From: Thermotogota bacterium
GTDB lineage: Bacteria; Thermotogota; Thermotogae; Thermotogales; DSM-5069
Assembly (NCBI GenBank): GCA_029551145.1
Contig: JAKPGA010000024.1
Coordinates: 1-64,000, forward strand
DNA: 64,000 nt
Direction of reading: 5' to 3'
The translations under genes and the position numbers were made by a program. Positions 23,883 to 39,487 of the stretch are shown piece by piece. Position 1 is the first letter of the stretch. The number at the start of each line of letters is the position of its first letter. A model generated the notes under the pieces. The model had not been told where the DNA came from. It searched no databases and saw only the letters and a list, made by a program, of their open reading frames with translations.

Positions 23883-24707
23883 TCAGCCCTTGTATGGGCC
23901 AGGATATTGCATCTTCTTTGAAGTTACTTCTGCGGCGAGCTCGACAGCCTTTCGCAGATCGTCAAGGGCAGTGATGAAAGTAGACAGGCAGGTGTCACCC
24001 CTTCCTGTTCTACCCTCCAAAGAATAGGGTAAAAACCTTGCTTCATAGAAGCTTTCACCATCGAAAGCATAGACTCCATCTTTATGAGTGGCAAGAACGA
24101 TCTTGGTTCCCATTCCTTGTATCTTTCGACACGCTTCTTTCAAATCTCTTTCGCCGGTGAGCACGAAAGCTTCATTGTTGTCCACTTTGAAAACATCGAA
24201 GAACTTCAAATACTTTCCCTTGTCTTTCCAATCTTGATACCTTAGCTGGCCGTTATCCACGACATTTCTCAAGAAACCTTGTGCATCCGCAGCCAGAATC
24301 TCCCCTCTTTCTCTAACAAATTCGATTAATTCCTCGGGAAATTCGCCATACCAAAGCGCACTCAGAATAATCCTCTCGCAGGATATACCCTCAATATCTC
24401 GTCTTTCAAATCTTTTTCCCAGCGAAAGGACTCTACTGATCCTGTCGTCAGGATTTCCGGTTGGATAGAGATTCTCTATGGTCGTAGTGGTCTCACTTTC
24501 AAGAAACAGAACCTGAACTCCAGTACTTATCATTTCATCGTACAGTGAGCGATCATTGATACTGCATTTTGTTATCACTTCGCATTTAGCACCTAATCTT
24601 TGTGCCGCGATACTACCATAGAAAACACCACCACCTGGTACGGTAACGGTCTTTTGTGTTGTCCTGTTTATATCTTTTGCGACATGACCTATGAAGAGAA
24701 TGTCCAT
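23883..24707 (-). CDS. PfkB-family carbohydrate kinase (inositol kinase IolK candidate)
   Basis: Ribokinase-type ...GRTGRGDTCLSTFITA motif; VPGGGVFYGSIAAQRLGA; cluster context. Confidence 0.75.
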   Translation of the reverse strand: MDILFIGHVAKDINRTTQKTVTVPGGGVFYGSIAAQRLGAKCEVITKCSINDRSLYDEMISTGVQVLFLESETTTTIENLYPTGNPDDRISRVLSLGKRFERRDIEGISCERIILSALWYGEFPEELIEFVRERGEILAADAQGFLRNVVDNGQLRYQDWKDKGKYLKFFDVFKVDNNEAFVLTGERDLKEACRKIQGMGTKIVLATHKDGVYAFDGESFYEARFLPYSLEGRTGRGDTCLSTFITALDDLRKAVELAAEVTSKKMQYPGPYKG

Positions 24708-24721
24708 CGGTATCTCCTTTC

Positions 24722-25471
24722 TCACTTGACCCCCGCGGCCGCTGCGATGACGTCCATTATGTATTGGGGTGTCACATCTTTCCTGAGATAGTCTCCGATC
24801 TTTTCACCATGTTCGAGCAATACCAGCCTGTCAGCTACCTCGTAGACATGATAGATGTTGTGGGTTATAAAAATCACAGAAATACCTCTCTTCTTCGCCT
24901 CTTTTATGTGCTCCAGGACCTTTCTGGTTTCACCAACAGATAGCGCAGCGGTCGGCTCGTCGAGAATTAGAAGCTTCGCACCGAAATAAATAGCTCTTGC
25001 AATGGCGACAGCCTGCCTTTCTCCACCTGACATGAAGGCAACAGTCTCGTCGGGACTTCTCACAGATATCCCTATATCTGCCAATGCATCGAGAACTATC
25101 CGCCTCATTTTTCTTCTTTCGATACATGAGAACGGTCCAATTTTCTTAGTCATTTCGCGTCCAAGGAAAAAATTCCGCCACAGAGGCATCAGATTTATCA
25201 ATGCAAGATCTTGATATACTGTTTCAATACCAAGTTGCCTTGCTTCCCGTGGAGAGCTAAAATTCACCTTGCTTCCCTCAAAGTAGATTTCTCCTTCGTC
25301 GGCCTTATGATATCCGACAAGTATCTTTATCAAAGTTGATTTACCAGCTCCGTTGTCTCCAAGAAGGCCGACGATCTCGCTTGCTTTCACATCAAAATCA
25401 ACTCCTCTGAGCGCTTGAACTCGTCCGAAGGATTTCTTTATGCCTTTCATTTGCACAAGCAAGTCGCTCAT
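24722..25471 (-). CDS. Single-domain sugar ABC ATPase (CUT2, FrcA/RbsA-like)
   Basis: LLGDNGAGKSTLIKILVGYH, MSGGERQAVAIARAIYFGAKLLILDEPTAALSVGE. Confidence 0.85.
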   Translation of the reverse strand: MSDLLVQMKGIKKSFGRVQALRGVDFDVKASEIVGLLGDNGAGKSTLIKILVGYHKADEGEIYFEGSKVNFSSPREARQLGIETVYQDLALINLMPLWRNFFLGREMTKKIGPFSCIERRKMRRIVLDALADIGISVRSPDETVAFMSGGERQAVAIARAIYFGAKLLILDEPTAALSVGETRKVLEHIKEAKKRGISVIFITHNIYHVYEVADRLVLLEHGEKIGDYLRKDVTPQYIMDVIAAAAGVK

Positions 25472-27465: not shown

Positions 27466-28434
27466 TTACCACATATTTCCCAAGCTGTATATGCTTCTCC
27501 AACCTGGTTCAAATGGCTTCTTCAGCGCGGCGTCCAACTCTTCTTTTGGCCTTTGAGAAAGTTCGTTCGCCGGTGGCAATTTGCCAGCGGGGTAGGTTTT
27601 CATAATATCATTCACAAGCTTCTCCAAGTAGTTCAATAAGGCTTCCACACCTTCTTTAGCCTTCTCTGCACTTGCCTTGGTTGCTTTCCCAACAACGCCC
27701 TCCGGATAAGCAGCAACTTCAATTGGTCCGCCACCCACGTGTCCATACCAGGCAATGGCTCTGTGCAACAAATTGCCGGCTTTGTCGATGTGACCTTCCG
27801 GCATATAGCCCCTTGGTGTGGTATCGACTGCCCATTCTTGATGGCAGAACTCCGGGAAGAGGGCAAGACTCCATGATGTTTCTACCTCATCTGCATGGAT
27901 GAAGTTCGTTTCGTAAGGACCGCCCTCTTGTTTAGTCTTGAACTTGTCCTGAATTGCGTGATACCAGTTCACGTTGAAGATCATCGCGGGTACCTGGAAA
28001 ATCTTCGCAAATTTGTGTATTGCAACCGGTATGACGAATTCCTGACCATGTCCATTCAACAGAATCTGTTTTCTAAAACCTGCATTCCAAAAACCGGCTA
28101 TGGCGCTGACAAGTAAATCAATGAAGGCATCATCTTTCACTGGGACTGTTCCTGGCATGCCAATATGGTGATAGGGATGAAAGCCGTACCATATCGGCTC
28201 TGCTACGGTACATCCTGTCCTTAGAGCTACCTGCTCCGCCATCCTCGTAACCAAGAATGTGTCCTCACCTGTTGGAGCATTTGGTCCGTGGTTTTCAGTG
28301 CTGCCAACTGGGATGATTATCAAATCACATTTTTTCACTCGATCTTCGATCTCTTTCATGGTCATTGTTTGATAATAAACGCCTGACGGCTTTTCCATGT
28401 GGCCTTCCTTTGGCGGTATCTCCCATTTTGACAT
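27466..28434 (-). CDS. Creatininase-family hydrolase (IolN candidate)
   Basis: IIPVGSTENHGPNAPTGEDTFLV, LLNGHGQEFVIPVAI, NFIHADEVETS creatininase motifs; context with IolG/IolM-like genes. Confidence 0.8.
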   Translation of the reverse strand: MSKWEIPPKEGHMEKPSGVYYQTMTMKEIEDRVKKCDLIIIPVGSTENHGPNAPTGEDTFLVTRMAEQVALRTGCTVAEPIWYGFHPYHHIGMPGTVPVKDDAFIDLLVSAIAGFWNAGFRKQILLNGHGQEFVIPVAIHKFAKIFQVPAMIFNVNWYHAIQDKFKTKQEGGPYETNFIHADEVETSWSLALFPEFCHQEWAVDTTPRGYMPEGHIDKAGNLLHRAIAWYGHVGGGPIEVAAYPEGVVGKATKASAEKAKEGVEALLNYLEKLVNDIMKTYPAGKLPPANELSQRPKEELDAALKKPFEPGWRSIYSLGNMW

Positions 28435-28436
28435 AT

Positions 28437-29432
28437 CTATCCCTCCAATTTCACATGTGGGTTACCACTCTCGACAGCTCTGTAACATGCATCTATGATC
28501 TTTATCACCTTGACACCGTCACTCACAGTGACTGGGGGCGCCTTGTGTTCTTTTAGGCAGTCCACAAAAAGCCTGTTTTCAACTATATATCCCCACTTTT
28601 CCTTGAAATCAACCTTCGTGAAATCGTGGCTTTCCACTTCTCTTCCAAGTCCCTTGCAGAAGTGCACCCTTTCCATTTCCTCGTTGGTCATCATCATATG
28701 CTCACCATAGACCTCTACCCTTTCAAAAGGTATCATCCAACTCGCGTGTGCACATGAGGTGAAAGTGCCAATGATTCCGTTTTTCATTCTCATAGTAATT
28801 GCCCAATCATCGATATCTGGATAGACACTTTTTTTGCCAAGAACGAACATCTCTTCAACATCGCCAAAAAGCCAACGAGCCATGTCAAAGAGGTGCAGAG
28901 TACTTTCAAAGAGAAAACCACCGGTATAGGATCTGTCAGAAGTCCAAGGTGGGTTGAGTAGCTCACCCCTGTTCATCTTTATCTGAAAGGAGTATGGCTT
29001 AACTGTTCCATTTTCTATCCTTTCTTTCATAAAAGTATATACATGTGCGAACCTTCTGTTATGACCAACCTGAAATATTGCACCTGTTTCTTTCACCTTA
29101 TTCTCCAAAGCCAGTGCATCTTTCAATGAAATCGTCATTGGCTTCTCGCAGAAAACATTCAATCCAAGATCAAGCGCATTCATCGCGTATTCGAAATGCG
29201 TTTTGTTGGGAGATGTTATATAAACAACGTCCACCCCGTAATCTTTCATTTGTTTTAGGTTATCAAAGGTCTTTGCAGCAAACCTATCTGCCACCGCTTT
29301 TGCTCTATTTTTGTCAACATCCATTACTCCAGCGATCTCGACATCTTCAAAGGTTGAGAGTATCTCCAGGTGGACTTGTCCTATAAAGCCACTCCCTACG
29401 ACCCCAACTTTCACCTTTTCCATAAAGACCAC
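28437..29432 (-). CDS. Gfo/Idh/MocA oxidoreductase (myo-inositol dehydrogenase IolG candidate)
   Basis: VGVVGSGFIGQVHLEIL, FCEKPMTISLKDALALE. Confidence 0.8.
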   Translation of the reverse strand: MVFMEKVKVGVVGSGFIGQVHLEILSTFEDVEIAGVMDVDKNRAKAVADRFAAKTFDNLKQMKDYGVDVVYITSPNKTHFEYAMNALDLGLNVFCEKPMTISLKDALALENKVKETGAIFQVGHNRRFAHVYTFMKERIENGTVKPYSFQIKMNRGELLNPPWTSDRSYTGGFLFESTLHLFDMARWLFGDVEEMFVLGKKSVYPDIDDWAITMRMKNGIIGTFTSCAHASWMIPFERVEVYGEHMMMTNEEMERVHFCKGLGREVESHDFTKVDFKEKWGYIVENRLFVDCLKEHKAPPVTVSDGVKVIKIIDACYRAVESGNPHVKLEG

Positions 29433-29433
29433 C

Positions 29434-30627
29434 TCAAGGATTGAGCATCGTTACTTTGACAAGCTCTTTATCGGTCTGCAGCTTCTTGATGTACTCAGGT
29501 ATTTCTTCAAGTTTTACGGTCTTAGAGATTAACTTTGTCATATCCATTCCTGTTGCCATAAGGCTAATAACTCTTGGGAAATTACCATGTCCAGAGTGAC
29601 CTTGTGAACCAACTATCTGTGCGCGCCTCACTTGAAACACTTCGCCGGTTACTGGAATTTTTGCATCGGCTCTCGCAACTATCACGACGGTGGCGTTTAC
29701 ACCTCTCGCTCTCCAGATAGTCTCCTCTATGTCTTTCCACACAATCTGAGGCAAACCTGTGGCTTCCAAATAGATCTTGGCACCCATGCCATTCGTGCTG
29801 TCCAGAACAGCTTCTACGAAATTCTCCTTTGTTGGATCCAAAACTACATCTGCTCCCAGTTGCAACGCAAGTTTTCTTCTTGTTTCGGAAGGCTCTGAGA
29901 GTATAACCTTTGCCCCACCCGCTCTTTTGAGTACCGCGACTGCTGCGAGTCCTATTGGTCCTCCACCGAGAATAACCACGTTGTCCCCTGGTCTAATTCC
30001 CCCACCTCTTTCTATAACAGCGTTGTAGGCAACCGATGTGGGCTCAACCAGACTGCCAGCCAAAAACAACTTATCGCCTTGATAATCTTTCTCAAGTTCC
30101 TTCAAACTCCACAGGTATTTGGCATCAGATATCACGTACTTTGCGAAAGCACCGTCAATATCAAAGCCTATCTCATGAAGATTCTCACAGTGATTGGGAT
30201 AACCATCAGCACAAGGTCTACAATGGCCACACCAGAACATCTCTTCAGAAGTCACTGGTTCACCCGGTTCAAACCTCTTGTTTGTCCTTCTGTTTATCGC
30301 TTCAGGTCCAGCATCTACAACTATTCCTGAGAATTCGTGCCCGAGGGTCGCTGGAAAACCTGTCAAGCCGGGGTAAAGCATGTAGCCGTCTTGGTCTGCC
30401 TGTGCCATGTGAACATCGCTTCCGCAAATTCCACACGCTTTCACTTGGATCAAAACCTCCGTTGGTTTTTTGATCTTAGGTTCTGGAACATCCTCGACAA
30501 CGACTTGAGGGTATCTCCAGACTTTGCTACCAAGCCAACAAACCTTTCCCTCCACATCCTTTGGACCAAGCTTGAAACCTGGTCTTGGATCCCATTTGGC
30601 ATGCAACCTCACTGCTTTCATTCTCAT
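29434..30627 (-). CDS. Zn-dependent medium-chain dehydrogenase (scyllo-inosose dehydrogenase IolM candidate)
   Basis: KACGICGSDVHMAQ, GHEFSGIVVDAG, WCGHCRPCADGYPNHC, VVILGGGPIGLAAVAVLKRAG. Confidence 0.8.
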   Translation of the reverse strand: MRMKAVRLHAKWDPRPGFKLGPKDVEGKVCWLGSKVWRYPQVVVEDVPEPKIKKPTEVLIQVKACGICGSDVHMAQADQDGYMLYPGLTGFPATLGHEFSGIVVDAGPEAINRRTNKRFEPGEPVTSEEMFWCGHCRPCADGYPNHCENLHEIGFDIDGAFAKYVISDAKYLWSLKELEKDYQGDKLFLAGSLVEPTSVAYNAVIERGGGIRPGDNVVILGGGPIGLAAVAVLKRAGGAKVILSEPSETRRKLALQLGADVVLDPTKENFVEAVLDSTNGMGAKIYLEATGLPQIVWKDIEETIWRARGVNATVVIVARADAKIPVTGEVFQVRRAQIVGSQGHSGHGNFPRVISLMATGMDMTKLISKTVKLEEIPEYIKKLQTDKELVKVTMLNP

Positions 30628-30841: not shown

Positions 30842-31606
30842 TTATTCGCCGAAGAGAGAAGAAATGTGATTCTTGATCTTTTACAAAAGAAAGGAAAGGT
30901 AACTGTTAACGAACTGACAAAACAGTTGAGGGTCAGCAGTGTGACGATAAGAAAGGATCTTGATTTCTTGGAAGCAAATGGTTCAATAGTTAGGACACAC
31001 GGTGGAGCAATGCTTCCTGATCATTCGCGTTCGGAATGGAATTTTCTAAAGAAAATACATCAGCGTGAGAATGAAAAGAAAAGAATAGCCAAGAAGATCG
31101 TCTCGCTCATCGAAGACGGTGATACGGTGATACTCGATAGCAGCAGTACAAACTACTACGCCACTTTCGAGCTTAGAAAATCAGATCTCTCAATGATCAC
31201 AGTCGTCACGAACAACGTTTTCATAGCCGGCAAATTGATAGAATTGGGCATAGAAGTACTCGTCCTCGGTGGTGTTGTGAGAGAGAACAGCTTGTCTCTC
31301 GTGGGTCCCTGGGCTTTGAGATTTCTGGAAGAAATCAATGTAGATAAGGCATTTTTGGGAACCACGGGTTTTTCTGCAGAAAAGGGCTTCATGACCCCAA
31401 GCGTCGTTGAAGCCGATGTGAAAAAAGCAATGATACGAAGCGCTTCGAAAGTATACATTGTGACAGATTCTACAAAGTTCAACCGTAGTGCCTTTGCTTC
31501 TTTTGCCTTACCTGAGGACATAGACGGTGTAATAACAGATGAAAATATACCGAAGGACTATGAAACTCTATTGATTGAAAGAGGCGTCCAGGTTTACAAG
31601 GCATGA
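30842..31606 (+). CDS. DeoR-family transcriptional regulator (start codon problematic)
   Basis: FAEERRNVILDLLQKKGKVTVNELTKQLRVSSVTIRKDLDFLE; first canonical start is GTG 30866, but conserved AEERR lies upstream with SD GGAGGG before TTA at 30842. Confidence 0.75.
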   Translation, partial: LFAEERRNVILDLLQKKGKVTVNELTKQLRVSSVTIRKDLDFLEANGSIVRTHGGAMLPDHSRSEWNFLKKIHQRENEKKRIAKKIVSLIEDGDTVILDSSSTNYYATFELRKSDLSMITVVTNNVFIAGKLIELGIEVLVLGGVVRENSLSLVGPWALRFLEEINVDKAFLGTTGFSAEKGFMTPSVVEADVKKAMIRSASKVYIVTDSTKFNRSAFASFALPEDIDGVITDENIPKDYETLLIERGVQVYKA

Positions 31607-31620
31607 AAGGGGATGTGAGT

Positions 31621-33099
31621 ATGAGGGAACAAATTGATCTTCTTTTCAAGGAATTCGAAAAACTGACTGCAGGGAAGTATCAAATTTATCCTGAATCAGT
31701 GCATCATTTTGAAGGCTCGAATTTGTTTATGTGCAAAGATAAAGATAAGAAGCTACTCGTGATAATAGGCAAAAAAGGCATATGTGAGAAATTCACAGCC
31801 AGCAAGATCGGCGAGATAGAGAACCTCGATGTAGTTCTTTGCCAACTGTCGCATGAGAACTGCGAAGTGATAAAAGAACTCCTTGGCTTACGTCCAAGCA
31901 GGTGCACGAAAAAGACTTCATTTGGCTTTGGTGACAGACTTGGTATTGCCACACCTGCACATGCCTCAGCTTCAAAGGATCACGATATTTTTCCAATCTT
32001 TGCCCAACAGTCCGTGAGGGAGCTTTCCAGAACACAAAGAACCTTCAGAGACGTGCTGGACAGTGCTGTGTGGGGTGTCTTTGAAAGCGGGTATCGCGAA
32101 AACTTCGGAGCTGACGCGGACCATGTCAAACACACCGAAGATCTGTTAATCGCTGCGCATGAAGGTTATACCATGTACACGTTGGATCCATCTGATTACG
32201 TAAAAGATGTAAGCAAGATGAATCAAAAAGAAATCACCGAGTTCTACCAATCACACCCGGAAAGAAGAGAACTGGAGGCAAGGTACTTGGGAAAAACCTT
32301 CAGTCTTTCAAAGGAAAAACTCGTTATGAGTGAAGAAGATTTCGTAAAAATCTTTGTCACCTACATCGACGTTTTGGAACACGTTGTGAAATGCTATGAT
32401 GCTCTCAGAGGTGTAAGAAGGGATTTCGATCTTGAAGTATCGATAGATGAAACTTCGACACCAACGACTCCGCTTGCTCACATATTCATAGTGCAGGAAC
32501 TGAGGAGAAGAGGAGTCGATTTCCAAACACTCGCTCCAAGATTTGTTGGCCAATGGCAAAAGGGTATAGATTATATAGGGGACCTTTCGATTCTCGAGAA
32601 AGAAATATCAATTCACAGTGAGATAGCAAAAATCCTTTCTGGTTACAAACTCTCACTGCACTCAGGAAGTGATAAATTCAGTGTATATCCTATTTTCGCA
32701 AGATACACCGAAGGCAACCTGCATGTCAAAACAGCGGGAACGAGTTACTTGCAGGCCATGAGAGCAATAGCTGTGACAGATGCTTCGTTGTATCGACAGA
32801 TTCACAAATATGCGCTCACACGTTTTGAAGCAGATAAAGCATCGTATCATGTGACAACAGATCTGAGTAAAGTTCCTGATGTCGACAAGATCAGTGACAC
32901 AGACCTTTCAAAACTCTTCCAAATGCCGGATGCCCGTCAATTGATCCACATAACTTACGGTTCTGTGCTCACGGCGAAGGAATCGGGACATTATCTATTC
33001 AGAGATCGTATTTTCAAGGTTCTTTTCGAAAACGAAAGGCTACACTATGAATTCGTGAAAGATCATATGGAAAAACATCTTGATTTATTGAAAATCTGA
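31621..33099 (+). CDS. uxaE: Tagaturonate epimerase (UxaE family)
   Basis: Resembles Thermotoga UxaE (TM0440 family): FGFGDRLGIATPAHASA, GVFESGYRENFGADADHVKHTEDL; ORF extends to 31603. Confidence 0.75.
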   Translation: MREQIDLLFKEFEKLTAGKYQIYPESVHHFEGSNLFMCKDKDKKLLVIIGKKGICEKFTASKIGEIENLDVVLCQLSHENCEVIKELLGLRPSRCTKKTSFGFGDRLGIATPAHASASKDHDIFPIFAQQSVRELSRTQRTFRDVLDSAVWGVFESGYRENFGADADHVKHTEDLLIAAHEGYTMYTLDPSDYVKDVSKMNQKEITEFYQSHPERRELEARYLGKTFSLSKEKLVMSEEDFVKIFVTYIDVLEHVVKCYDALRGVRRDFDLEVSIDETSTPTTPLAHIFIVQELRRRGVDFQTLAPRFVGQWQKGIDYIGDLSILEKEISIHSEIAKILSGYKLSLHSGSDKFSVYPIFARYTEGNLHVKTAGTSYLQAMRAIAVTDASLYRQIHKYALTRFEADKASYHVTTDLSKVPDVDKISDTDLSKLFQMPDARQLIHITYGSVLTAKESGHYLFRDRIFKVLFENERLHYEFVKDHMEKHLDLLKI

Positions 33100-33113
33100 A
33101 AGGAGTGTTCAAG

Positions 33114-33938
33114 ATGAAGGAAGCTTACAAATTGTTCAGTCTGGATGGAAAGGTTGTGGTGATAACAGGTGGTGCGGGTATCTTGGGTTCGGCAATAGGT
33201 AAAGGGTTAGCAAGATTTGGAGCAAAGGTCGCAGTATGCGATATCAAGAATTTCGATGCAGTGGCCCTTGATTTGCAAAAGGCCGGTTTTGAAGCAAAAG
33301 GTTATCACATGGATGTGCTAAATCTGGAAAGCATCAGACAGGCATGCGATGAAATCTTAAAGGACTTTGGCAAAGTTGATGTTTTGCTCAACGCTGCGGG
33401 AGGAAATATGCCCCAAGCCACAACATCCACTGAACTGAGCTTTTTCGATCTGCCATTGGATGCCTTGCAGAAAGTGGTTGGGCTGAATTTGTTTGGTGGA
33501 GCCATATTACCATCACAGATATTTGGCAAGTTCATGGTGAATAGAAAAGAAGGTGGTTCCATCATAAACATTTCTTCGATGTCGGCTTTCAGACCTTTAA
33601 CACGAACGGTAGGTTATTCCGCCGCAAAAGCCGCGGTGAGTAACTTCACACAGTGGCTCGCGGTTCATCTTGCAATGGAATACAACAAAAATCTGAGAGT
33701 CAACGCGATTGCACCCGGGTTCTTCTTAACACAACAAAATAAATACCTGTTGCTGGATGAGCAGGGAAATCTCACCGCCAGAGGGAAGGCGATAATAGAT
33801 CACACACCTATGGGTAGGTTTGGGGATCCCGACGATCTCATAGGAGTTTGTGTGTGGCTTGCTTCAGACGCATCAAAATTCGTCACAGGTGCTGTCATTC
33901 CTATAGATGGCGGCTTCAATGCGTATTCCGGCGTGTGA
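33114..33938 (+). CDS. SDR-family oxidoreductase (D-fructuronate/D-mannonate oxidoreductase candidate)
   Basis: GKVVVITGGAGILGSAIGKGLA, GYSAAKAAVSNFTQWLA, PIDGGFNAYSGV; directly follows uxaE. Confidence 0.8.
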   Translation: MKEAYKLFSLDGKVVVITGGAGILGSAIGKGLARFGAKVAVCDIKNFDAVALDLQKAGFEAKGYHMDVLNLESIRQACDEILKDFGKVDVLLNAAGGNMPQATTSTELSFFDLPLDALQKVVGLNLFGGAILPSQIFGKFMVNRKEGGSIINISSMSAFRPLTRTVGYSAAKAAVSNFTQWLAVHLAMEYNKNLRVNAIAPGFFLTQQNKYLLLDEQGNLTARGKAIIDHTPMGRFGDPDDLIGVCVWLASDASKFVTGAVIPIDGGFNAYSGV

Positions 33939-33951
33939 GGAAGGTGTAGTG

Positions 33952-35229
33952 ATGAGCTTTGTCGAGAATCTTTCAGGTGAGTTGAGCTCAAAGGAGCTTT
34001 CACAGATAGTCGAGCAGATGTTGCCAGATAAGAGGCTCGAGAAAGTGCTTTTGATACACCCAGATTACACACGCCAGGATTTCTCGGACAAGCTGGTTCC
34101 CCTGATTGTCAAGCATCTCAAAGCAAGGGGATTGAAGGTTCTCCATACCCTGAATGCCAGTGGTACTCATCGTGCCATGACTGAGAAGGAGATTAGAAAG
34201 AAACTTGGACTTTATCAAGAGCAATTCGTCTTTTTCAATCATGAATACGCAAATCCTGATGCCTTGACGACTGTCGGAACTTTGGGCAGAGAATTTGTGA
34301 GCGAAAAGACCATGGGAGATCTCCAGGAACCATTACCAGTAACACTGAACAAGCTGTTCTTTGAAAAATACGATCTGATTATCGTCCTAAGTGGCACTTC
34401 TCCCCATGAATCTACAGGCTTTTCAGGAGGTTTAAAATCGATTATACCCGGCATCGCGGGACCTGATGTTGTTGGACTTTTCCACTGGGCTGCTGTTCTC
34501 ATTGGCATTCCAAGGATCATTGGTTCAGAGGATAATCCAGCGCGAGAAGTCATCAACGAAGCCTGCAAGATAGCCTTCGAAAAGATCAATTCACTGGTCC
34601 TGTTCCTGAACATGGTCTATGAAGAAACCGACAATGGAATCGTTCCAAAAGGTCTTTACACAGGCTTTGGGTTCGAAGGTTCCTTGCAGGCATACAAACA
34701 AGCGGTGAAAGCCAGCCAGAGGATACACATAATCTACTTGGATAAACCCGTTAGGACGGCGGTACAGGTCATAGGGGAAAACTACGACGAAATTTGGACT
34801 GCCGGGAAAGGGTCTTACAAGCTTCAAAGACCGGGTGTTCTTCTACCGGATGGGGAAATCATAATCTATGCACCGCATATCAAAACCTTTCATTCAAACC
34901 CGCAAATGGACAGCGCGATACGCCAAATAGGTTACCACTGCAAGGGTTATGTAAAACAATTCATAAAGAAACACCCAAGATTCGATCTGAACGTTGCGGC
35001 ACATGTCATAAATGTGAGAGGTGACGGCACCTTTGATGCGGTGACAGGAAGAGAAGAATTCGCTTTCAAGGTAACACTTGCGACATCTATATCGAAACAA
35101 GAATGCGAAGCAGTCGGGCTTTCATACCGCGATCCAAGATCGATCGAAAAAGAGGATTTTCAATCAGATGACTGCCTCTGGATCGAACATGGTGGAAAAT
35201 TCCTTTACGATCTGAAAAAGGAGGCATAG
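33952..35229 (+). CDS. LarA-superfamily (nickel-pincer lactate racemase-like) hydroxyacid racemase/epimerase
   Basis: HPDYTRQDFSDKLV, LNASGTHRAMTEKE, SGTSPHESTGFSGGLKSIIPGIAGPDV motifs. Confidence 0.8.
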   Translation: MSFVENLSGELSSKELSQIVEQMLPDKRLEKVLLIHPDYTRQDFSDKLVPLIVKHLKARGLKVLHTLNASGTHRAMTEKEIRKKLGLYQEQFVFFNHEYANPDALTTVGTLGREFVSEKTMGDLQEPLPVTLNKLFFEKYDLIIVLSGTSPHESTGFSGGLKSIIPGIAGPDVVGLFHWAAVLIGIPRIIGSEDNPAREVINEACKIAFEKINSLVLFLNMVYEETDNGIVPKGLYTGFGFEGSLQAYKQAVKASQRIHIIYLDKPVRTAVQVIGENYDEIWTAGKGSYKLQRPGVLLPDGEIIIYAPHIKTFHSNPQMDSAIRQIGYHCKGYVKQFIKKHPRFDLNVAAHVINVRGDGTFDAVTGREEFAFKVTLATSISKQECEAVGLSYRDPRSIEKEDFQSDDCLWIEHGGKFLYDLKKEA

Positions 35230-35232
35230 AAG

Positions 35233-36555
35233 ATGAGAAATGTTGTGATTGCCCAATCTGGCGGACCAACATCTGTTATAAACAACAGTCTACGTGGTGC
35301 GATTGAGACCTTCATGAACAGTGGTAAGGTAGGCAAGATCTATGGTGCGAGGATGGGTATACTGGGAGTTTTGAATGAAGAACTCATCGACATCAGTGCT
35401 CAAGAACCTATGCAGATCAAACTCCTCGAAAAAACCCCTTCGGCTGGTGTCTTAGGAAGTTGCAGGTACAAAATCAAATCTCAAGAAGATTTAGAAAGAA
35501 TTGTCGAGGTTTTCAAAGCACACAATGTGGGATATTTTCTTTACTGTGGTGGCGAAGATTCTATGGACACGGCAAACAAAGTGAGTCAACTCGCCCACGA
35601 AAAGGGACTTGAGGTCATCTGTGTAGGTATTCCAAAGACAATAGACAACGATCTTGGTGGCAAACTCCAACCAGACGGTACCTTTGCAATATGTGACCAC
35701 GATCCTGGTTATGGAAGCGTTGCGAGAAACACGGCGATGAATGTCCTTGAAGCTAACGAAGAGAATAAGGCAAGCTACACAAGTGATCCCGTTCTTGTGA
35801 TAGGAGTTATGGGCAGGAAAATGGGATTCATAACGGCTTCGGCGAGACTGGCTGATCCAAGCAGAGAGATGCCACTGTTGGTAATCCTTCCCGAGGCATT
35901 GTCTCAAGATGACTATAAATCCAACCTCGAATACATCACCGAAAAGGTCAATGAAACACTCAAAGACCACAAAAGATGCATCATCGTCATTGGTGAAGGT
36001 GTCAATGTCGGTGATCTGGGAATACTGAAAGACAGCTTTGGTCACGCACAGTTCAGTGCCGCTGAGAGAAGCGCCGAACAAGTACTGGCGAATTACTTGA
36101 ATGGCCTCGATAGGAAAGATGAAAAGGGAAGGGCGAAAAGTAGGCTCGTTGTCCCTGGCATTGCGAGGTATGAAAAACCGGGAACAAGACAGAGAAGAGA
36201 GATTGCGTATATCTCAGAAGTGGATTTGAAAGAAGCTTATGAAGTTGGTGCATTCGCAGCAAAACTTGCGCTCAATGGTGAAACAGGCTATATGGCAACG
36301 ATTCTGAGAGTGCCCGGTCGGGAATATGCGGTTGAATACTCGAAAATACCGTTGAGTGTCGTAGCAAACTCTGCAAGGGAATTTCCAAGAGAATGGATAA
36401 GTGATAACAAAGTCGACGTTACAGATGACTTCATCAAATGGGCAATGCCTTTGATAGGCGGTCCACTGCCTGAGTTTGCCAACTTCAAGCAGATAATGGC
36501 ACCAAAACTTTGTGCTTCGTACGTCCCCACAGGTTTAAGACAACAAGGAGCGTGA
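35233..36555 (+). CDS. Diphosphate-dependent 6-phosphofructokinase-like protein
   Basis: AQSGGPTSVINNSL, CGGEDSMDT (D instead of ATP-PFK Gly), GIPKTIDNDLGG (K instead of ATP-PFK Gly), GVMGRKMGFITA. Confidence 0.8.
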   Translation: MRNVVIAQSGGPTSVINNSLRGAIETFMNSGKVGKIYGARMGILGVLNEELIDISAQEPMQIKLLEKTPSAGVLGSCRYKIKSQEDLERIVEVFKAHNVGYFLYCGGEDSMDTANKVSQLAHEKGLEVICVGIPKTIDNDLGGKLQPDGTFAICDHDPGYGSVARNTAMNVLEANEENKASYTSDPVLVIGVMGRKMGFITASARLADPSREMPLLVILPEALSQDDYKSNLEYITEKVNETLKDHKRCIIVIGEGVNVGDLGILKDSFGHAQFSAAERSAEQVLANYLNGLDRKDEKGRAKSRLVVPGIARYEKPGTRQRREIAYISEVDLKEAYEVGAFAAKLALNGETGYMATILRVPGREYAVEYSKIPLSVVANSAREFPREWISDNKVDVTDDFIKWAMPLIGGPLPEFANFKQIMAPKLCASYVPTGLRQQGA

Positions 36556-36559
36556 GTCG

Positions 36560-37606
36560 ATGGCGTACGTCAGATTAACACAGAAAGATCTGAAAGAAAA
36601 ACCAAGAGAACAACTGCTGAATTTCAAAAGAAAAAGGAAATTCTTGATAGCGATCGACACAGATGGATGTGTCACGGATAACATGAATGGAAAGCAAATT
36701 CTGATCTTCCATCCGCATTTCATGGAATTCTACAATCTATGGGAGATAGAATCATACTACAGAGAAATCGCAGAATACTACAATCTTTTTTCTGAACATC
36801 GAGGTTGCAATAGATTTATCGCCATTCAATTGATCCTGCGCGCTCTGTACAGCAGAAAAGATGTGAAAGATGTAGTTGAGCGAAAAAACATAAAATTGCC
36901 AGATCTGAGCCTCGTTGAAGATTTCATAGAATATGCAAAAGGCAAGAATCTGGGACTTGGTAATCAAGCATTGGAAAAGTACATCAACGAAGAGAGACCC
37001 AAAACCTTTGGCTTGTACAAATTACTTGGATGGAGCGAGGCAGTCAACAGAACCTTTCCACATATTTCAGCCGAAATACCCCCATTCGATGGCGTTGAAG
37101 AGGCCGTAAAGCTTATGTCCAAACACGCAGATATCATAATTGTTTCACAGACACCTTATGATGATCTTGCGGATTACTGGGAAAAATACAACCTTGCAGA
37201 GTACATAGATCTCATCGCAGGTCAAGAGATGGGAACAAAGGCTCAGCACATAGAACTTGCCAAAAAAGCAGGTGGGTATAAAGATGACGAAGTTCTCATG
37301 ATAGGCGATGCGATAGGCGATCTGAAAGCCGTTAAGTCAAACAACGGTTTGTTCTATCCTATCGTACCTGGAGAAGAAGAAAAATCGTGGCGCGAATTTC
37401 CAGAAGCATTCGAAAGATTTCTACATGGGAATTATGCCGGAGAGTATGAACAAAGTCTCATGCACAATTTCAATGAAGTGCTTTCACAAAAAGAACCATG
37501 GGATCAACCAGGATATGATCACATTGAGCATTACAAGAAGTATCAAAATCTGAGAATACAGTTGTACAAGAAATTCAATCCCGCTGGAAGATTATTTGTT
37601 GTATAA
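36560..37606 (+). CDS. HAD-superfamily hydrolase
   Basis: FLIAIDTDGCVTDNMNG motif I variant, IIVSQTPYDDL, DDEVLMIGDAIGDLKAVKSN. Confidence 0.75.
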   Translation: MAYVRLTQKDLKEKPREQLLNFKRKRKFLIAIDTDGCVTDNMNGKQILIFHPHFMEFYNLWEIESYYREIAEYYNLFSEHRGCNRFIAIQLILRALYSRKDVKDVVERKNIKLPDLSLVEDFIEYAKGKNLGLGNQALEKYINEERPKTFGLYKLLGWSEAVNRTFPHISAEIPPFDGVEEAVKLMSKHADIIIVSQTPYDDLADYWEKYNLAEYIDLIAGQEMGTKAQHIELAKKAGGYKDDEVLMIGDAIGDLKAVKSNNGLFYPIVPGEEEKSWREFPEAFERFLHGNYAGEYEQSLMHNFNEVLSQKEPWDQPGYDHIEHYKKYQNLRIQLYKKFNPAGRLFVV

Positions 37607-38320: not shown

Positions 38321-39487
38321 TCATGGATTACTCAATCGACCCATGAACAGAATCAAATCATGGGTTTTATCATATATGAAGAACAAGAATGGTTTGTCAG
38401 CTTTAAATATAACAGGTATTGATGGTCCCATTTTTATGTTGATTATGACAGCTGTACTCGCTGTTGCTTCAGTTCCTTCCTCGTTTACGTCGACAAATGA
38501 TTGATGAATAACATCTTTGATCTTCAGCATCGTTGTTCCGTCCATCTTCGAAAAATCTGCTTCATCTGTGAAGGCATCTATCATACCCATAGCCACAAGC
38601 GTCTTCTTCAAATTCAACCTACATTCCATTTTGAATTTTGGAAGGTAAACATCAACTTTTTCTGTCCGTAGGTTATTCACCCATTCCTTGAAAAGGACCA
38701 GTGAAAGCTTACCTTCTACATCTTCTAAACTCTTACCCTTCAAAGGAAGTACGATGATCATCGACAGTTCGTCACCTGCGTAAGGTAATTCGAGAACCTG
38801 AACCAGCGAATCTTCTGTATAGGCTGCCGTGAGGCTTTCAAACATCATTTCTACTTGTTTTTCTTGTTTATTACTGACATAAAAGGTTTCCTTTTTTGTT
38901 AAAGACGGATCGAAAGGTTTTGCCCAATTGCCTTTGAAGTATATTGCGTTTGTCAAAACAAGCTTTGTCAATGAATCTATATCACCCGGTTTGATGATGT
39001 CTTTTATTCTCTGGTTAGTCTTCTCTTCAACCCAATTGTTGATCCTTTGCCTTGCTTCCTCCGTTGTTTCAGCAAAATCAACATAATTGAGTCCTGAAGA
39101 GTAGTATTTTTGAACCTTGTCTATGAATTCCTTCAGAAATGGATATCCTTCTTGTGCCCACATGGAATTAGCGATGGACAGTTGATACTTTTCATTTGGC
39201 TGATTCAGAGAACTTATCAGTTCAGAGAAACCACTATGAAGCGTTTCATCATCGAGATTGAAATGAAGTACATCTTTCATTTGCTGGGCAGTATTATCAG
39301 CTGCACCAATGTAAGCCATGGCAAGGGCAGTACTGATACTGAAAGGTGAAAGGAATATGTTACCTGGTTGCTTCGACAAAGTTCTATATATATCAAACGC
39401 AAAGAGATTTGATGAATCATAAACTGTGCCAAAGCCTATGGTTGCTACAAGTACACCCAAAAAAACCACTGAAAAGAGTCTTTTCAT
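38321..39487 (-). CDS. Secreted serpin (inhibitory-type serine protease inhibitor)
   Basis: Signal peptide; NIFLSPFSISTALAMAYIGA; VLTNAIYFKGNW; hinge VDVNEEGTEATAST; KADKPFLFFIYD. Confidence 0.9.
   Translation of the reverse strand: MKRLFSVVFLGVLVATIGFGTVYDSSNLFAFDIYRTLSKQPGNIFLSPFSISTALAMAYIGAADNTAQQMKDVLHFNLDDETLHSGFSELISSLNQPNEKYQLSIANSMWAQEGYPFLKEFIDKVQKYYSSGLNYVDFAETTEEARQRINNWVEEKTNQRIKDIIKPGDIDSLTKLVLTNAIYFKGNWAKPFDPSLTKKETFYVSNKQEKQVEMMFESLTAAYTEDSLVQVLELPYAGDELSMIIVLPLKGKSLEDVEGKLSLVLFKEWVNNLRTEKVDVYLPKFKMECRLNLKKTLVAMGMIDAFTDEADFSKMDGTTMLKIKDVIHQSFVDVNEEGTEATASTAVIINIKMGPSIPVIFKADKPFLFFIYDKTHDLILFMGRLSNP

Follow-up and report, generated by a model that had tools for sequence, protein, structure and literature searches.

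Organization of the locus

The window, that is, the whole stretch of 64,000 nucleotides that was analysed, belongs to a Thermotogales genome (G000; 2.1 Mb in 73 contigs) whose nearest named relatives are Pseudothermotoga MAGs. It contains an operon of six plus-strand genes, DeoR-uxaE-SDR-larA-PFK-HAD, which extends from 30866 to 37606, neighbouring genes overlapping or lying a few bases apart, and which is opposed by minus-strand inositol genes (iolM, an iolG-like gene, iolN, genes for a ribose-type ABC transporter, a TM0415 ortholog and, farther off, iolO). The principal features are as follows.

30866..31606, + strand: DeoR-family regulator that opens the operon (PF00455/PF08220); place conserved in genomes of this family (f1) and of family f11
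31621..33099, + strand: uxaE, tagaturonate/fructuronate epimerase (PF16257, 648 bits)
33105..33938, + strand: SDR, predicted fructuronate reductase of the D-mannonate oxidoreductase type (PRK08277, 362 > 281 bits)
33952..35229, + strand: gntE, predicted LarA-superfamily D-mannonate/D-gluconate 2-epimerase, GntE2/LarAH20 ortholog (4NAR, 8e-164; Thermotoga gntE, 58-60%; catalytic residues invariant)
35233..36555, + strand: divergent paralog of PPi-type phosphofructokinase, candidate gluconate kinase (PRK14072, 357 > 273 bits; 3K2Q/3HNO; subfamily alignment; neighbourhood)
36560..37606, + strand: HAD-superfamily hydrolase, partner of the PFK paralog, probably a phosphatase (HAD_2; conserved motifs; HAD fold)
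29434..30627, - strand: iolM, scyllo-inosose 3-dehydrogenase (NF041097, 525 > 450)
28437..29432, - strand: iolG-like inositol dehydrogenase (best match TIGR04380, 184 bits, under the cut-off of 355)
27466..28434, - strand: iolN, 3-dehydro-scyllo-inosose hydrolase (NF041098, 538 > 245)
23883..24725, - strand: TM0415 ortholog, PPi-dependent myo-inositol kinase (1VK4/5YSP, 1.9e-76; RTGRGD motif retained; PMC5931981)
18448..19278, - strand: iolO, 5-keto-L-gluconate epimerase, predicted to supply D-tagaturonate to UxaE (NF041099, 428 > 300)

The initial annotation had placed uxaE, the SDR gene and the LarA homolog at 31621-35229, divergent from IolM/G/N. Both the open reading frames and the divergent arrangement are confirmed, and IolO can be added to the inositol genes. 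The PFK and HAD genes, which lie beyond these three, belong to the same operon, with gaps of 3-4 bases. The UxaE match covers the full length of the profile (positions 1-475 of 475), and the locus contains, with the TM0415 ortholog and the PFK paralog, thus two possibly PPi-using kinases. Promoter and terminator scans gave results no better than chance. A full-length serpin gene (PF00079, 432 bits; 38321-39487 of the window) follows the operon and is encoded on the other strand. Elsewhere in the data, contig C26 ends in short repeated frames (L133:12904-13931) that look as if a CRISPR array had been translated as protein.

Identity of the LarA homolog

The open reading frame of the LarA homolog spans 33907-35229 and matches Lar_N with 84 bits, with the probable start at 33952, where its orthologs begin. 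The motifs DYTR, SGTHR and GFSGGLKSIIPG, recognized at first inspection, are present together with the other catalytic residues. The closest solved structure is 4NAR (8e-164; the second-best match reaches only 4e-9), which was deposited under the title 'putative uronate isomerase', and whose sequence as displayed matches the gntE gene of a Thermotoga genome (G035, alignment A1). LarAH18 hexonate epimerase (NF052594), the top NCBIfam match, was rejected as an identification because it scores 192.5 of 500 bits and the 4NAR match is far better.

Sixteen other Thermotogales genomes each have one GntE ortholog, 58-86% identical, and identity to the Thermotoga gntE products is 58-60%. The equivalents of D72, R75, H108, H174, K184, H200 and Y294 are invariant across 21 GntE sequences, in which the hexonate signature of groups 18-20 (an E(V/S) loop plus W; here E153, S154, which is A in some, and W179) is also invariant or nearly so. 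Between G000 and G009, both of which are without larBCE, gntE has a dN/dS of 0.05 (0.03-0.08 for its operon partners).

Assays of T. maritima GntE2/LarAH20 have demonstrated D-mannonate to D-gluconate epimerisation, with the nickel-pincer nucleotide (NPN) as cofactor and an optimum at 80-90 C (PMC7583248). Because of the 4NAR match, this assayed ortholog and the invariant residues, there is a strong case by orthology that GntE of the window is likewise a D-mannonate/D-gluconate epimerase, which was the activity first proposed for it. Its predicted mechanism would follow that of T. maritima, with proton-coupled hydride transfer on NPN held by Lys162 and His178, and with His73 and His152 as the acid/base pair.

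A predicted route from inositol to gluconate

From the gene content we infer the reactions in this organism. IolG, IolM, IolN and IolO would convert inositol to D-tagaturonate, which UxaE would epimerise to D-fructuronate; the SDR would reduce D-fructuronate to D-mannonate, and GntE would invert C2 to give D-gluconate. After phosphorylation, Gnd would pass the product into the pentose phosphate pathway, and G000 does contain a gnd ortholog (611 > 427 bits). This is the route drawn in the initial annotation, and it is still the best reading, but it does not amount to a new metabolic branch: an operon of T. maritima, gnd-uxaR-uxaE-uxaD-gntE-gntK, which is UxaR-regulated and pectin-induced, is already published (PMC3750489). 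Thermotoga loci and G034 show the same gene order. We consider the locus to be the Pseudothermotoga form of this known Thermotoga uronate-to-gluconate module, attached to an inositol locus (probability roughly 0.78). The gene order, orthology, residue conservation, selection and presence of gnd are all direct observations. What is new is an orphan GntE, without larBCE, and a PFK/HAD pair displacing gntK.

The iol/uxaE/SDR/gntE arrangement is kept in six other genomes of the family, and association with inositol genes is also seen in G104 and G105, which belong to another family; no iol genes flank the uxaE-SDR-gntE block of G008. A broad scan of contigs with the gntE alignment gave no more than five loci. 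In a Ca. Atribacteria MAG, uxaC is accompanied by uxaE-SDR-gnd-gntE (L127:5747-11293), so the module occurs outside Thermotogota.

Exit from mannonate

UxuA, which the pathway was originally said to bypass, is indeed not in the window. A uxuA gene is, however, present elsewhere in G000 (C10:19690-20751) and in five other members of the family, and is absent from G008, G009 and G010, which retain gntE. A strict bypass is therefore needed only in these three sister species, for which, with uxuA as the dehydratase family searched, no way out of mannonate other than gntE was found. The presence of uxuA in G000 and in four genomes of genus g4 offers an ordinary route from mannonate. If UxuA handled mannonate, gntE would serve only overflow or a related hexonate. 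We regard this as quite unlikely, given that the three species without uxuA keep gntE, that uxuA of G000 lies away from the inositol locus, among alpha-glucosidase AglA and xylose genes, and that the linkage of gnd to gntE points to gluconate and 6-phosphogluconate.

Cofactor supply

To our knowledge, LarB, LarE and LarC are the sole makers of NPN. The initial annotation had suggested looking for their genes in the genome, with absence taken as refuting its proposal. Profile and protein searches, from which all gene presence and absence was taken, gave no match to larB, larC or larE over the cut-off in any of the 11 genomes from the family to which the window belongs, several of them assembled into a single contig. 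In f1, LarB matches of 30-52 bits were not counted, as they cover the carboxylase-domain part of the model alone, in short, PurE-like open frames; nor were LarE matches of less than 55 bits, which are partial, lie within larger open frames and resemble other PP-loop ATPases. The three genes are also absent from G034 (99% complete), despite the full T. maritima-type operon there. Among 45 Thermotogales genomes, larC and larE exceed the cut-off in all seven Thermotoga genomes and nowhere else; larB does so in six of the seven, the last being a fragmented assembly with broken pieces of the gene. In Thermotoga genomes the three genes are mutually adjacent. LarC was also looked for in G045 and G046, two further MAGs with gntE (one from a Thermotogae bacterium, one from a Ca. 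Atribacteria bacterium), and neither has it. An assembly gap was rejected as the cause because several of the genomes that lack larBCE are single-contig at 99% completeness.

The gntE gene itself is present in nine of the 11 family genomes (4/4 of the window's genus and 5/5 of genus g4), and also in G034. The label 'nickel-dependent' is in tension with a genome that has no larB, larC or larE. We read the missing genes as a problem of cofactor supply and not as a refutation of GntE function, because residues that bind a cofactor are not expected to stay invariant after its loss. Since gntE is clearly under selection without larBCE, the source of the cofactor is a real puzzle, and we infer that in this family it is imported or made by an undescribed route.

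It could instead be proposed that these genomes contain an orphan GntE with no need of NPN, its fold serving a different cofactor or a different chemistry. The persistence of gntE where larB, larC and larE are missing, throughout the family and in G034, and the lack of LarC in G045 and G046, would fit such a change. On the other hand, the NPN-binding and catalytic residues examined do not vary between genomes with and without larBCE, and all LarA homologs with detected activity, including T. maritima GntE2, required NPN (PMC7583248). The same change would also have to have occurred in a second LarA homolog of G000, and we consider an NPN-free GntE very unlikely. This second homolog is of the LarAH6 malate racemase type (561 > 500 bits; G000:C14:17293-17880, L055:9273-10532) and adjoins genes for a galactarate-dehydratase-like protein and a TctA-like transporter, again in a genome without larBCE. 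Contamination is not favoured as its origin, as the GC content and tetranucleotides of the contig match G000.

Returning to import or an undescribed route, the retention of a strongly selected LarA enzyme without LarBCE in nine of 11 family genomes points to cofactor uptake or to an unknown pathway, and thermophiles with complete genomes make the question testable. A literature search turned up no description of a LarA enzyme in Thermotogae unaccompanied by LarBCE. For LarA homologs in general, annotation as nickel-dependent is unsafe without a check for larBCE.

The kinase position

In eight genomes (G034-G041), gntK starts about 9 bases past gntE. In eight other Thermotogota genomes, from four families (G000, G009, G010, G104, G105, G106, G052 and G068), the position directly downstream of gntE is taken by the PFK paralog together with the HAD gene; a ninth copy of the paralog, in G049, is sited elsewhere and not after gntE. 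The gntK gene and the PFK paralog never co-occur in the slot after gntE. The suggested check of the genome for gntK found no ortholog in G000 (the best FGGY protein is 30% identical to GntK), the kinase-fold gene downstream of gntE being PFK-like. In five of the eight PFK-slot genomes (G104, G105, G106, G052 and G068) gnd is immediately upstream of gntE, and G068 has an SDR-gnd-gntE-PFK-HAD block without uxaE or inositol genes alongside, so the PFK/HAD pair goes with gluconate and not with inositol.

The PFK paralog keeps the catalytic Asp (D138) and the PPi determinants Asp109 and Lys135. Its equivalents of R162 and H249 are Pro and Thr, respectively, in all nine members, while the R252 equivalent is retained; the roles of these residues in binding the 6-phosphate of fructose 6-phosphate are presumably those of E. 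coli PfkA, from which we assigned them. The subfamily alignment shows three conserved insertions. The best fold match is 3K2Q, and the AlphaFold model, which is middling (pLDDT 76), was used for the fold alone. The HAD motifs DTDGC, S(Q/K)TP, K and GDxxGDL are conserved across eight orthologs, and the HAD model matches general HAD relatives alone.

The simplest reading of the PFK paralog, and one we put forward tentatively, at somewhat under even odds, is that it has taken over from GntK as a gluconate 6-kinase, probably a PPi-dependent one; this reading adds to the best explanation of the locus. It is consistent with the mutually exclusive use of the slot after gntE, with gnd-bearing clusters in which the kinase is the one step missing between mannonate and ribulose 5-phosphate, and with retained PPi determinants combined with altered 6-phosphate-binding residues and the insertions. 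G000 also has four other PFK-family genes, available for glycolysis. Against this, six gntE-bearing genomes (G003-G008) have neither the PFK paralog nor a gntK ortholog; one of them, G008, has lost the PFK gene and keeps only a decayed HAD pseudogene (L046:8680-8988) behind an intact gntE. Of the seven FGGY kinases of G000 that were typed, three are xylulokinases and two are glycerol kinases; the remaining two are unassigned, one of them lying within a TRAP/hydroxyacid cluster, so the assignment of gluconate kinase is not certain. We know of no PFK-fold enzyme that acts on gluconate, and a literature search found no PFK-family gluconate kinase.

The PPi-PFK ancestry of the paralog, and the transketolase gene that follows it in the G104 and G105 clusters, would also suit a PPi-dependent kinase of sedoheptulose 7-phosphate or fructose 6-phosphate, acting in the pentose phosphate pathway after Gnd and transketolase. 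This seems rather unlikely to us, as the phosphate-binding residues are remodelled, transketolase is not adjacent in the other clusters for which flanking sequence was available, and the gluconate kinase step would be left without a cluster gene. A gluconate kinase with the PFK fold, if confirmed, would be a new activity for the PFK family and, if it uses PPi, would join the very few PPi-dependent kinases known. The joint proposal, that GntE works in lineages unable to make NPN by LarBCE (through import or an undescribed route) and that its gluconate enters the pentose phosphate pathway via a PPi-dependent PFK-family kinase, is possible but doubtful.

Comparison with known systems

Relative to PPi-dependent phosphofructokinases of the PRK14072 type (3K2Q, 3HNO), the PFK paralog has the same fold, PKTIDND and MGR catalytic motifs and PPi determinants, but differs in its identity (34-40%), its altered phosphate-binding residues, its three insertions and its linkage to gntE and HAD. 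GntE resembles T. maritima GntE2/LarAH20 (4NAR; PMC7583248) at 58-60% identity, with the catalytic and NPN residues and the hexonate signature all kept, although the host genome here is without NPN biosynthesis genes.

The operon as a whole shares with the pectin/galacturonate operon of T. maritima (uxaR-uxaE-uxaD-gntE-gntK) its uxaE and gntE orthologs and their order, an SDR gene between them and the same predicted chemistry. Here, however, it is linked to inositol genes rather than to pectin, its regulator is DeoR instead of GntR, its SDR is not a uxaD ortholog (about 31% identity), the gntK slot is taken by PFK and HAD, and the genome is without larBCE. Orthologs of IolM, IolN, IolO and TM0415 of the T. 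maritima inositol pathway (IolGMNO plus TM0415; PMC5931981, PMC3750489) are present; unlike in T. maritima, the inositol genes are directly divergent from the uronate/gluconate operon, and ribose-type ABC transporter genes are included in their operon.
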